DNA from: Bolinopsis microptera | Lineage: Eukaryota > Ctenophora > Tentaculata > Lobata > Bolinopsidae | Direction of reading: 5' to 3' | NCBI RefSeq assembly: GCF_026151205.1 | Contig: NC_087077.1 | Coordinates: 7,369,983-7,433,982, forward strand | Length of the DNA stretch: 64,000 nt | Shown here: positions 46,850 through 64,000 of the stretch, piece after piece | How the letters are laid out: the number at the start of each line of letters is the position of its first letter | How positions within the stretch are numbered: position 1 is the stretch's first letter | Notes under the pieces: generated by a model | What the model was told of the DNA's origin: nothing | Seen by the model: the letters and a program-made list of their open reading frames with translations, nothing else | Database searches by the model: none | Translations under genes and position numbers: made by a program

Positions 46850-47556
46850 TCATGTGGTTAACCCCGACTTGAAGTAGAAATAAACACCGCCCAGTACCGC
46901 CGTAACAATTACAATCAACCCCACAACTATTCCAACTATCAGCCACACGCTGTGCCCCTTTGCTGAAACAATTGGAATAATATCAGGATATTTATAATAA
47001 AGGGAATATTTACTTCTAGTCACAAACACTATCTGACCAGAATAAAAACGTGACCAAAGTTCTTAAATAATTTCGGTCCATTTTATAAGTTTGTTAAATT
47101 TGCTGTAAATTTGCTATTTTGTAAAAGTTTCAAATCAAATCTTAAGTTGTTGACTGTAGTATCAAGAACCCTTATTTAACTTGCTATTTTGCGGATCAAC
47201 ATCCAGGGATCTGTATATTAATATACTCGTAGGGGACTAAGGAGGGGTGAGATCCATGAAAATATCACCCTCCCTGGATTGTTTGAAGATTGCGTCATAG
47301 TACATATAGCGTTATCACTATCTCCATAGCTCAATTAATTGGAAGGAATGACTAAATTTCCAACCTGGTTCGCATACAGGATCAGACTGGAAATGAAAAG
47401 TTATCCCTTTCAAACACGTGAGGTGTAAACTTCCGTGCAGCACCAAATCGTCGTCTCTACATTTCACTAGCACTGTGTTACCTGCTGCAATGGGGAAAGT
47501 GGTGGGGTTTCCCACGGTCAGGTAAGTTTTATCTGGCGGCAATCCTGTACAATCCT
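46850..47556 (-). pseudogene. 3' end of a receptor-family gene: CCP exon and transmembrane exon only
   Basis: Exon 47556-47365 (192 nt, phase 1 at both ends) encodes one sushi/CCP-type domain with four cysteines (EDCTGL, VLVKCRD, LHLTCLK, DPVCEP). It splices through AG|GTTGGA to exon 46962-46850, which encodes a ~23-residue hydrophobic membrane segment (VWLIVGIVVGLIVIVTAVLG), a short YFYFKS tail and TGA at 46850. The two exons correspond to the last two exons of the plus-strand gene at 57293-58840. No Ig, module or leader exon is visible further upstream on this strand before the CT tract, so it is likely an inverted partial duplicate. A gene with diverged 5' exons is possible. Confidence 0.72.
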
Positions 47557-48063
47557 CTGCGGATGGATTGTTGTAAAATTCATTGAAACATGAACAGTCA
47601 CGGTTAGTGTTATTTTAGCTAACTCAACTACTCAAGTTAGAGTTAACTTGGACCTATCTCGGAGCCATCCACAATCATATAAATTAAATTAAATATCAAA
47701 GCTAAGGTACATCCGATCATCCAAACCTGATATGACTGATCGCTGCAAGAACTGTAAACCAACGATCAACACCCCGATTAACATCACAACTCCCTTCCTG
47801 TGAACAGCAAAAACAGAGCTCTTTCACGCAAGACAAAGAGGATGATACACAATGAGACCTGTGCGGGTGGCTAGGCTGTGTAATTTGGTTAGAGAGCCCA
47901 ATAAGCTCCTTTGCAAATGGTGTAGTAGATACACAATGGTTGTGTGGCGGGCTATAACACAAGCACTCTGTGTGTGAGCAAGGAAAAAAGGAGGGTGTGG
48001 TAATGGTGCTACCTTCATGCTCTCTCTCCCTCTCTCACACACACTCTCTATGTCCCTCTATGT
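47557..48063. other. sequence upstream of the minus-strand CCP exon, no exon recognised
   Basis: An open frame at 47962-47717 (minus) has scattered cysteines but no recognisable domain and no phase-1 splice sites that would add it to the CCP exon. Treated as non-coding. Confidence 0.45.
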
Positions 48064-48455
48064 CCCTCTCTCTCTCTCTCTCTCTCTCTCTCTCTCTCTC
48101 TCTCTCTCTCTCTCTCTCTCTCTCTCTCTCTCTCTCTCTCTCTCTCTCTCTCTCTCTCTCTCTCTCTCTCTCTCTCTCTCTCTCTCTCTCTCTCTCTCTC
48201 TCTCTCTCTCTCTCTCTCTCTCTCTCTCTCTCTCTCTCTCTCTCTCTCTCTCTCTCTCTCTCTCTCTCTCTCTCTCTCTCTCTCTCTCTCTCTCTCTCTC
48301 TCTCTCTCTCTCTCTCTCTCTCTCTCTCTCTCTCTCTCTCTCTCTCTCTCTCTCTCTCTCTCTCTCTCTCTCTCTCTCTCTCTCTCTCTCTCTCTCCCTC
48401 TCTCTCTCTCTCTCTCTCTCTCTCTCTTCTCTCTCTCTCTCTCTCTCTGTCTCTA
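48064..48455. repeat. (CT)n microsatellite, ~390 bp
   Basis: Almost uninterrupted CT dinucleotide with minor interruptions near the right end (CCCTC, TTCTC, GTCTC). It separates the minus-strand receptor fragment from the plus-strand gene set and gives meaningless polySer/Leu frames. Confidence 0.98.
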
Positions 48456-49298
48456 TAAGTTAGACTACATTCATAAGGAGATAATTGGTTATTAACTGGC
48501 GATTATGTGTGAGTACTGAGTTCTATAAGAATATGAAGATGGAGTGTGTACAATACAATTAAGTCATTATCTTAGATTTGCATTAACATTAAAAATTTGC
48601 ATTAATGTGCATTAATAAGTCATTAAATAATGAATAGTGATCTAAATTGGGATTTTTCAGCCGTTCGCGTTATACTGTATGTACTATGTATAATAAACCA
48701 TATCATCGAATCAGATGCAGATCAAGTTTATCGGAGAACCAAGAAAGTATATTCTTGCTCAAGGAAATGTGTCCTTCCTGAATTTGGATAATATCTCCTG
48801 GCTCCATTCACTGTCGGAACAGTAAGAAGAAAACCAAACTTCACTTCATCTGAGCGATCCTCTCCGGACTTATCTCCGGACTATTAACCCAACGAAACTT
48901 AACTAAACATAGCTCTGTCTGGTCGTCTGGAGCTAATGTTGTTTGTAAATTATTATCAATTATGATTATGATAATCATGGTTATCACCTTTGTAAATTCA
49001 CCTTTGTAAATTCTTTAAATGCTAAGTATACATTGTGCTGAATAAAGTAATTTAAGGAGTCTAAAATAGTTCACATTGGCCGATTGATACAAAATCTATA
49101 CTATAACTATTCAACCATTGATTAATCGCTTTATTTAAAGCTTTCATTCTCTCTCTAAAAACTTAAAGAGAGGAGTGCACCTCAAAATTTTAGTTTTTCT
49201 CTTTTTGTTTAACTCACTACCCTTGTAGTTTGTACCCCTTATCTTATTTTAGTATATTTTACCTTTATGTACATTCACAACAGCACTACGATATCAGG
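48456..49298 (+). promoter_or_regulatory. 5' flank of receptor-family gene 1
   Basis: Intergenic stretch leading to the leader-exon ATG at 49299. The last part (GTAAATTC...TGCTAAGTATA near 49005-49030, ACATTCACAA...CAGGATG just before the start) resembles the flanks of the leaders at 53073 and 62970. No core promoter element could be fixed. Confidence 0.35.
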
Positions 49299-62563: not shown

Positions 62564-62589
62564 TATTAATGAATATATTATTATTTTAT

Positions 62590-62969
62590 TAAAATAATTG
62601 TGTATTATTTTTTCCACAACCTGTATTAATACTGAATTTGCTTTGACCATTAAGCAACATTATAGTGTATTCATTTCACTCCGACGATAACGTTAGCTCG
62701 GTCTCGAGCACAACTTTGGTACCTTCGTAAATTCTCGCTACATCCACTGCTTAGTATATATCTAATATTAGCTCTAGATCATCTTCCTCGACAATAATAT
62801 AATAGAACCTCTAGTACGCTCTTTAAGATTTTAGTCTAACTTTACAGTTCACAACTATATGAAAATAATCGCCTTATAATGTCTTATTAGTGTTTATTAT
62901 TTTGCTTAATGCACTTCATTTAATAAGTTTTACGTTTTAGTGCATTTACAAAAATACTACGACAGCAGG
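62590..62969 (+). promoter_or_regulatory. 5' flank of receptor-family gene 3
   Basis: Paralogous to 52770-53072, with the same ordered words up to ACGACAGCAGG just before the ATG. It carries an extra ~90 bp (around 62725-62820) relative to the gene 2 flank. Confidence 0.4.
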
Positions 62970-64000
62970 ATGATTCTGTATTTGGTTGCTCGTTTCATAG
63001 AAACTATCGCCATGGACAATGGTAAGATCTTATCTTAATATCTAAATCTTATCTTATCTTTTTATCTTATTGGTAAGCTTTTTTCAAGCTTCCGAATAAA
63101 AAAGTGTACTAACTTAAAAACGCTGTTACCTAATGGCACCGAGAATGAAATCGGCCACTCGCTTTTTCGATTTATACAGAGCCTGCAAATGTGTTATTGC
63201 ATCGATGAGTATGAAACCCTGTCAAAATTTCTTTTTTCTTGTTTTTAATTTAAATTTTTTTATTTAAATAAAAATCTCTCGCAATGCATATGTTGGATGT
63301 TGGACTTGGAGCAAAGATGACAGGTAAGCAAAGGGATCTGAGTACAAAAGAACTCAGTCCGTGACTAAGAATTGTTTCACTTGTCAGAGAATGGAGTGAG
63401 CAATCACTTCAAGAACATAACTAGTAACTGAGTGAAAGGAGTAGGTGATCACAACTACTGTAAGAACCCAGCAGAGACGTACGATGAAGCGTCACCAGAC
63501 TCGTCACTACTATCATACTGGTACAAGGTCCCTACTTACATCGTCATTCGTCAGCTGCGCAGTACTTTAGCACCAACTTGCGTGTTCTAATCGGGAATAA
63601 AGTTGATTCTTATAAGAGCGGCAGTTGAGTGTGTCCACTGTCCAATGAGTGGAGGTTTATCACACCAATTGTGAAATAATAAGAAAAGTGAGCGACCGAC
63701 TTTATTCTCGGTATCATTAGTTAACGTGGTAATTTAAGTTAATACCTTTTTTTATGTGCAATAGAAGGATAAGACGAAATATGTCGAGAAATGGCCCATC
63801 CGGATTCTTCGTGAACCACATTTATCCACAATTTTTTGCCATTATATTAGCCCTATAGTTATCCTACGATTCTGGGTAACTTTAAACCCCGTATTTTGTA
63901 TTGTCCATTGCTAACAGTAGGAATAACATGTACAGGATGGACAGCTGTAGAACGTGAAGTCCGGATACCGTATCCTGATTTTGAGTCTGTTCCACTGGAG
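62970..64000 (+). CDS. receptor-family gene 3, leader and start of module (runs off the window)
   Basis: Leader exon 62970-63021 reads MILYLVARFIETIAMDN + G|GTAAGA with an intact ATG. The intron contains a MITE at 63130-63720. The module exon begins at 63921 after AACAGTAG|GA and reads GITCTGWTAVEREVRIPYPD then FESVPLE to the window edge, open so far. The gene has the same structure and phase as genes 1 and 2 and is the most intact 5' end in the cluster. The rest of the gene cannot be seen. Confidence 0.72.
63130..63720. mobile_element. MITE in intron 1 of gene 3, related to the 42340 and 44018 copies
   Basis: CTAATGGCACCGAGAATGAA at the left and its near complement ending GGTATCATTAG at the right. 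GAGAATGAAATCGGCCACTC corresponds to GAGAATGAAATCGGTCGCTC, which lies internally in the elements at 42340 and 44018. Interior unrelated. Confidence 0.7.

Follow-up and report, generated by a model that had tools for sequence, protein, structure and literature searches.

Near the 3' end of a 64,000-nucleotide stretch of the genome of the ctenophore Bolinopsis microptera (the window; C6:7369983-7433982) lies a cluster of genes and gene fragments built of a leader, an orphan module (five copies, A-E), two immunoglobulin (Ig) domains, a CCP (Sushi) domain and a transmembrane (TM) exon. The cluster probably represents a branch, divergent and decayed in part, of a diversified family of recognition receptors. 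Searches with the module, Ig, CCP and TM exons were made against the 264.65-Mb B. microptera assembly (232 contigs). The genome-wide expansion of the module, its pattern of codon substitution and the comparison of two probable haplotypes fit a germline-diversified receptor family. The original prediction had seen in the cluster the features of a polymorphic recognition locus. That idea gains from the expansion, from a site-specific excess of amino-acid change and from the one haplotype comparison, all of which come from sister subfamilies elsewhere in the genome, and it loses from the window itself, where the modules of genes B and E show no excess of nonsynonymous change.

Matches to a first module query, 150 of which were scored out of 341 candidates, are found on the 13 large scaffolds (C1-C13) and on C45, an unplaced one. 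With a second query 150 of 463 candidates were scored and the weakest still matched at E 2.3e-28, so that the copies in the genome very probably number more than 150. The family is dispersed: when clustered at 25 kb, the best 150 of the 341 matches fall into 111 clusters, of which 82 consist of one module. A search for the motif DTASD[YF]Y gave 93 occurrences, against none for the reversed pattern used as a control. A CCP match on the same strand lies within 8 kb downstream of 49 of the 150 modules and upstream of only 3, a count that used 133 of the 150 CCP matches. Among 14 places inspected at 10-30 kb, the CCP was 3' of the module in 13 (L016-L028), several of which had been picked for a known nearby CCP, and it frequently followed Cys-rich repeats. 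These repeats match Pfam Ephrin_rec_like down to E 1.2e-6, and NCD3G at 4.8e-5, below the cutoff of that family. At L028 the CCPs score 27.1 and 32.1 bits with Sushi and the gene ends in a TM exon that by eye resembles those of genes B and E, while the CCP-like exon of L023 had no Pfam Sushi match. By eye, the leaders of the window cluster resemble the classic signal peptides of other members (for example, ORF [open reading frame] L024:1106-1276). A TM segment could be assigned with confidence only in B, E and L028, and several other members have TM-like stretches. A second module-Ig neighbourhood is found at C6:1620000-1650000 (L013-L015), where six tandem modules and Cys-rich repeats are neighbours of two Ig-like exons, only one of which matches a Pfam Ig family, and that weakly.

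The substitution pattern was studied in 84 full-length modules aligned over 146 codons, a non-random sample of best matches from which three partial copies were dropped. Nonsynonymous divergence (dN) exceeds synonymous divergence (dS) in 1095 of the 3486 pairs. It is the closer pairs that show this: 201 of 204 at dS 0.05-0.1 and 794 of 858 at 0.1-0.2, against 2 of 100 at 0.3-0.5 and 0 of 1969 at 0.5-2. The excess was localized by cross-validation, in which 45 variable codons were fixed in one subfamily and counted in another. Codons chosen in subfamily F1 give a dN/dS of 2.25 in F2 (bootstrap confidence interval [CI] 1.79-3.14; p 4e-8; 11 pairs), where the remaining framework gives 0.78. In the reverse direction, F2 codons give 1.80 in F1 (bootstrap CI 1.43-2.26; p 2e-8; 23 pairs) and the framework 0.77. 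Both sets are also high in the small subfamily F3 (6 copies, 3 pairs), at 2.83 and 2.64, respectively (p about 0.02), and codons chosen in F3 give 1.55 in F1 and 1.77 in F2, with framework values of 1.03 and 1.13. The CCPs of the same loci behave differently. Their dN/dS is 0.40 (7 copies) and 0.38 (5 copies) compared to 1.41 and 0.93 for the corresponding modules, all pairs being counted, of which only 3 and 2 CCP pairs are independent.

The variable sites are largely the same in F1 and F2, with 33 of 45 in common when 13.9 are expected. They also alternate along the sequence: autocorrelation is 0.41 (F1) and 0.47 (F2) at lag 2, and 0.10 and 0.00 at lag 1. When codons were shuffled within blocks of 12, the observed alternation was reached in 1 of 5000 trials for F1 and in 0 of 5000 for F2. 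Such a pattern is expected of a beta-sheet with one variable face, if the presumed strands and sheet are real. Within F1, distances measured on different segments of the exon show little correlation (rho -0.01 to 0.40), which is what exchange between copies would produce.

Two probable haplotypes of another locus are less alike inside the module exon (88% identity) than beside it (98%). Scaffold C45 (40 kb, unplaced) shows broad collinearity with C13:4.305-4.319 Mb. A 5' block (1193 of 1234 positions) and a CCP-containing block (1245 of 1251) are nearly identical, while upstream of the module a 1.7-kb block has 87% identity when gaps are included. Adjacent parts cannot be aligned, and rearrangement, in part by inversion, has affected the Cys-rich repeats. 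The immediate flanks of the module are identical at 957 of 976 positions (58 of these positions 5' of it and 918 3' of it), the module exon at 382 of 435, and its variable stretch at only 73 of 100 (p 2e-14). Among the 84 modules no near donor was found for the variable segment of either copy (best, 93 of 114 and 90 of 114). For the related M. leidyi, 127 of the 129 scaffolds left unplaced in the assembly are reported to be alternative haplotypes (PMC11797021). C45 and C13:4.31 Mb are thus probable haplotypes of one locus. C45 might instead be a recent duplicate, an alternative favored by its far end, which matches C9:4.14 Mb and not C13, and by part of its middle, which matches C9:4.14 Mb too.

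This last match is one of several observations that weigh against a receptor family diversified by selection. Over the whole exon the ratio of nonsynonymous to synonymous differences per site (pN/pS) is 1.27 (p 6e-6; 39 independent pairs, with 3 saturated pairs of 42 left out), but it is 1.04 (p 0.18) when all 42 pairs are counted, including the saturated ones. Divergence of the flanking introns, 0.148 in the 51 of 59 pairs that could be aligned, is about that of whole-exon dN and is higher than dS. This control weakens the case for positive selection over the whole exon: whole-exon dN/dS alone is no proof, and our claim is restricted to the variable codons. Even there dS is about twofold higher, indicating that a mutational or conversion component is likely to contribute too. 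In F3, the framework is not below 1 (1.31 and 1.38 with the F1 and F2 codons), and alternation was not seen (3111 of 5000 shuffles reach the observed value). The array at C6:1.62 Mb has no CCP by the pattern used. In the window, modules B and E differ by a pS of 0.313 and a pN of 0.170, with no excess of dN over dS, and the leader appears by eye to be a weak signal peptide.

Some of these points would be explained if relaxed constraint and frequent gene conversion had inflated dN/dS, leaving a diversity that is unselected. Mosaicism is pervasive, both among A, B, C and E and in F1, dS is elevated in the variable codons, and whole-exon dN is near intron divergence. We nevertheless give this explanation only a slim chance, as the framework of F1 and F2 is conserved (0.77-0.78) while their cross-chosen variable codons exceed 1, and the CCPs are constrained. 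Moreover, 144 of the 150 best matches of the first module query are free of stops in the matched stretch (142 of 150 for the second), although stop-free does not mean intact: the damaged copies A and B also pass.

If the family does consist of recognition receptors, its members would be type I membrane proteins, some possibly also secreted, in which a signal peptide is followed by one or more orphan modules, by a stalk, made of Cys-rich repeats in many members and of a captured Ig pair in the window branch, and by the CCP. In the window branch, the CCP would be followed by a TM helix and a short tail, and display at the cell surface may be presumed. The module looks all-beta and would act as the recognition part; along its presumed strands conserved and variable residues would take turns, so that one face of the sheet may form a variable, ligand-binding surface. 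Duplication of the phase 1-1 module exon and recombination within it, together with selection favoring amino-acid replacements on this face, could generate new specificities. An immune or self/non-self role would be in keeping with such a design. Families involved in prey capture or adhesive secretion, mucus, gamete recognition and chemosensing also show expansion and dN above dS, and fast evolution for one of these reasons could account for the present family as well. The confident assignment of a TM segment only in B, E and L028 leaves room for secreted members. We find this explanation improbable: CCP and Ig domains, a TM segment in the window branch and a CCP under purifying selection are more what one expects of a receptor than of a secreted product. 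The exact variable codons are named by the analysis and can be used in allele sequencing, binding assays and compatibility tests.

In the window, the complete example of the architecture is gene E, most of which lies beyond the window edge. Its leader exon (L3, 62970-63021, + strand) has an ATG, and its module exon begins at 63921 (63921-64000, + strand, in the window) and continues to C6:7434340. The gene runs through leader, module, Ig, Ig, CCP and TM in an open frame of 533 codons, with GT-AG at all six introns, to a stop at C6:7436546, 2.6 kb past the edge. As predicted from the assembly, gene E is thus intact, although the window cuts it.

Gene B, the only multi-exon gene within the window and wholly on the + strand, has the same exons: leader L2 (53073-53124), an open module exon (54976-55446), Ig1a (55997-56111; phase 1 in, phase 2 out, GT-AG), Ig1b (56308-56555), Ig2 (56680-57012), CCP (57293-57475), and a TM exon with a short tail (58665-58840; stop TAA). 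Its six introns are all GT-AG and of phase 1, except for the phase-2 intron inside Ig1. Gene B was rejected as the working gene on account of its leader, which has ATA where L1 and L3 read ATG, and of its module, which compared to C has an extra 40 nt and 2 nt that put about 13 residues out of frame; gene B is probably damaged. The 40-nt insertion resembles an inverted piece of the module's own 5' flank. The module is a mosaic. Its 5' part is nearest to A (55 of 60 identical, against 48 of 60 for E), its middle is almost identical to C (54 of 55, against 39 of 55 for E), and its 3' part is almost identical to E. Mosaic identities of this kind point to recombination or conversion within the module exon as the simplest reading.

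Copies A, C and D are damaged as well. Module A (50566-51041, + strand) has a one-base gap that breaks the frame near its 3' end. C (52304-52614, - strand) has lost its first half, matches B in inverted orientation at 94% over 263 nt, and contains one stop in its genome match. D (60076-60981, + strand) is internally deleted and split by insertion into fragments at 60076-60129, 60200-60280 and 60914-60981. Hence four of the five module copies in the cluster are damaged. Pairwise matches among A, B and C are above chance (E 4e-17 to 1e-51); for fragment D, and for the 87 nt by which E reaches into the window, the matches range from E 5e-6 to 7e-5, and the complete E module matches at E 5e-68. 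Leader L1 (49299-49350, + strand; ATG, donor GTAAGT) aligns with L2 and L3, and the three share the 3' boundary AATG/GTAAG. Besides the CCP and TM exons of gene B, an inverted gene fragment provides a second 3' end; the two lie on opposite strands, and both have phase-1 splice sites. Its CCP2 exon (47365-47556, - strand) starts C-T-G-L like the CCP of the family, has splice sites and four cysteines, and matches the gene B CCP at E 1.7e-6, with no match of its ORF in Pfam. Its TM2 exon (46850-46962, - strand; TM and tail) has a phase-1 acceptor (CAG/CA), a TGA stop and a hydrophobic stretch; it was recognized by that stretch and its good splice sites only, as no sequence similarity to the other TM exon was detected. 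Alignments, matches and splice sites thus bear out the original prediction of three leaders, five modules and two CCP-TM ends in both orientations, and its view of the architecture, of local duplication and of decay was right.

The state of the copies raises the question of whether the whole cluster is defunct, consisting of the remains of a single duplicated gene and yielding no functional product. A, C and D are broken, B has no ATG and is partly out of frame, and the area is rich in repeats and insertions. We consider this rather unlikely in view of gene E, with its ATG, six GT-AG introns and 533-codon open frame. Also, Ig1a (113 of 115 nt) and Ig2 (332 of 333) are nearly unchanged between B and E, though recent conversion could explain that as well; the modules (361 of 429) and the TM exons (114 of 173) of the two genes are less alike.

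The domain assignments of the original prediction fared unevenly in Pfam. The CCP of gene B is recognized as Sushi (25.8 bits; cutoff 20.7), and that of gene E falls just under the cutoff at 20.2 bits. The Ig2 ORFs tested stay just below the ig cutoff of 21.8 (20.6 and 20.8 bits; E 5.7e-4 for gene B), and the Ig1 ORF matched no Pfam family. Among the best 150 of 252 candidates, the close relatives of Ig2 are those of B and E only, the next being 55% identical and located in tandem Ig arrays; the picture is the same for Ig1 among the best 150 of 247, and Ig1b matches the first Ig of the array units. These giant arrays of Ig1-Ig2 exon pairs, with a unit of about 950-1050 bp, are found at C4:3526373-3552254, C7:10776696-10795792, C9:10551748-10562973 and other sites. 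The C4 array has at least 27 Ig2 matches of identical score, suggesting recent homogenisation. A query with the TM exon found genes B and E only in the whole genome (2 matches of 3 candidates). The window branch would have captured an Ig pair and would be losing copies. Both genes have a single TM exon followed by a stop. Their last 75 residues hold no YxxI/L/V motif in B and one in E (YAIL), in the hydrophobic stretch and not the tail, and with no recognizable tyrosine motif in the tail a signalling partner would be needed.

The window has several other repeats and elements. Between module D and L3, a perfect 407-nt inverted repeat (61446-61852 and 62160-62566, 307 nt apart) has the appearance of a foldback element or DNA transposon of recent origin. 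An element at 53157-54395, in intron 1 of gene B, is flanked by TGTCGCACTA-type repeats, with a FLYWCH zinc-finger ORF inside (53750-54001, - strand; Pfam 6e-8). A long CT/GA simple repeat (47958-48460) adjoins the inverted CCP2-TM2 fragment. Farther away are a reverse transcriptase fragment (1776-2777; Pfam RVT_1, 2e-20), a large array (7000-10740) of short repeats in which several frames are open on both strands, and a set of similar ORFs (SAYKRFFNAAPNL...; 26837-39552) that recur in either orientation and in several cases are 107 aa long; the one related ORF tested (36173-36598) had no Pfam match.

The module could not be equated with any known domain. In Pfam, the window copies gave scattered weak matches (best, AFT for copy C, E 0.0053), as did 63 aligned copies (SAM_decarbox 0.013 in one member, Sex_peptide 0.014 in four, CUB 0.12 in two). 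An NCBIfam match to the PRK10140 N-acetyltransferase in 11 of the 63 (best E 0.0061) was taken as chance. Searches of the PDB by single sequence or profile found no convincing relative (best E 0.53 and 1.8), and IMG/VR and prokaryote genomes gave none. The idea of a likeness to farnesoic-acid methyltransferase-like domains was dropped, as no search bore it out.

A survey of ctenophore immune repertoires (Koutsouveli et al., 2025; PMC11797021), B. microptera among them, mentions C-type lectins that are combined with Ig and CCP domains. It used known Pfam domains, none of which the orphan module convincingly matches, and it therefore probably missed the module. The word ctenophore is absent from a 2026 review of immune diversification (PMC13428168). 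No description of the module family was found in the open-access literature, most subscription papers lying outside this scope.

Large diversified families of recognition receptors are known in several animal phyla. Among non-bilaterians, the Hydractinia Alr allorecognition genes encode hypervariable membrane ectodomains, but their domains are Ig-like, whereas none of 63 orphan modules matched the Ig profile. Fused ctenophores reportedly integrate rapidly, which, if right, speaks against simple fusion allorecognition. In the variable lymphocyte receptors of lampreys, variable residues alternate on the face of a beta-sheet, as they may on the presumed sheet of the module. Unlike in the lamprey, the variation seen here is between germline copies, and the leucine-rich repeat family was not among the 19 Pfam families weakly matching 63 modules.

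The closest described architecture found is that of the fester/FcoR group of Botryllus schlosseri, judged by description rather than sequence. These are type I membrane proteins with a signal peptide, Ig and sushi domains, encoded by a multigene, haplotype-variable group; FcoR has 520-610 aa, with one V-type Ig, a sushi, two C2 Ig domains and a TM segment (PMC12065747). In size and parts FcoR is near the 533-codon gene E. By the same description, fester has three TM segments after its Ig and sushi domains where B and E have one, and FcoR has a long tail with an ITIM or hemITAM where B and E have a short tail with neither. In B. microptera, moreover, the variable part is an orphan module and not a recognizable V-type Ig, the phylum is Ctenophora, and the module matches are spread over all 13 large scaffolds rather than confined to one locus. 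An orphan hypervariable module in ctenophores, if confirmed, would be an independent route to recognition diversity.

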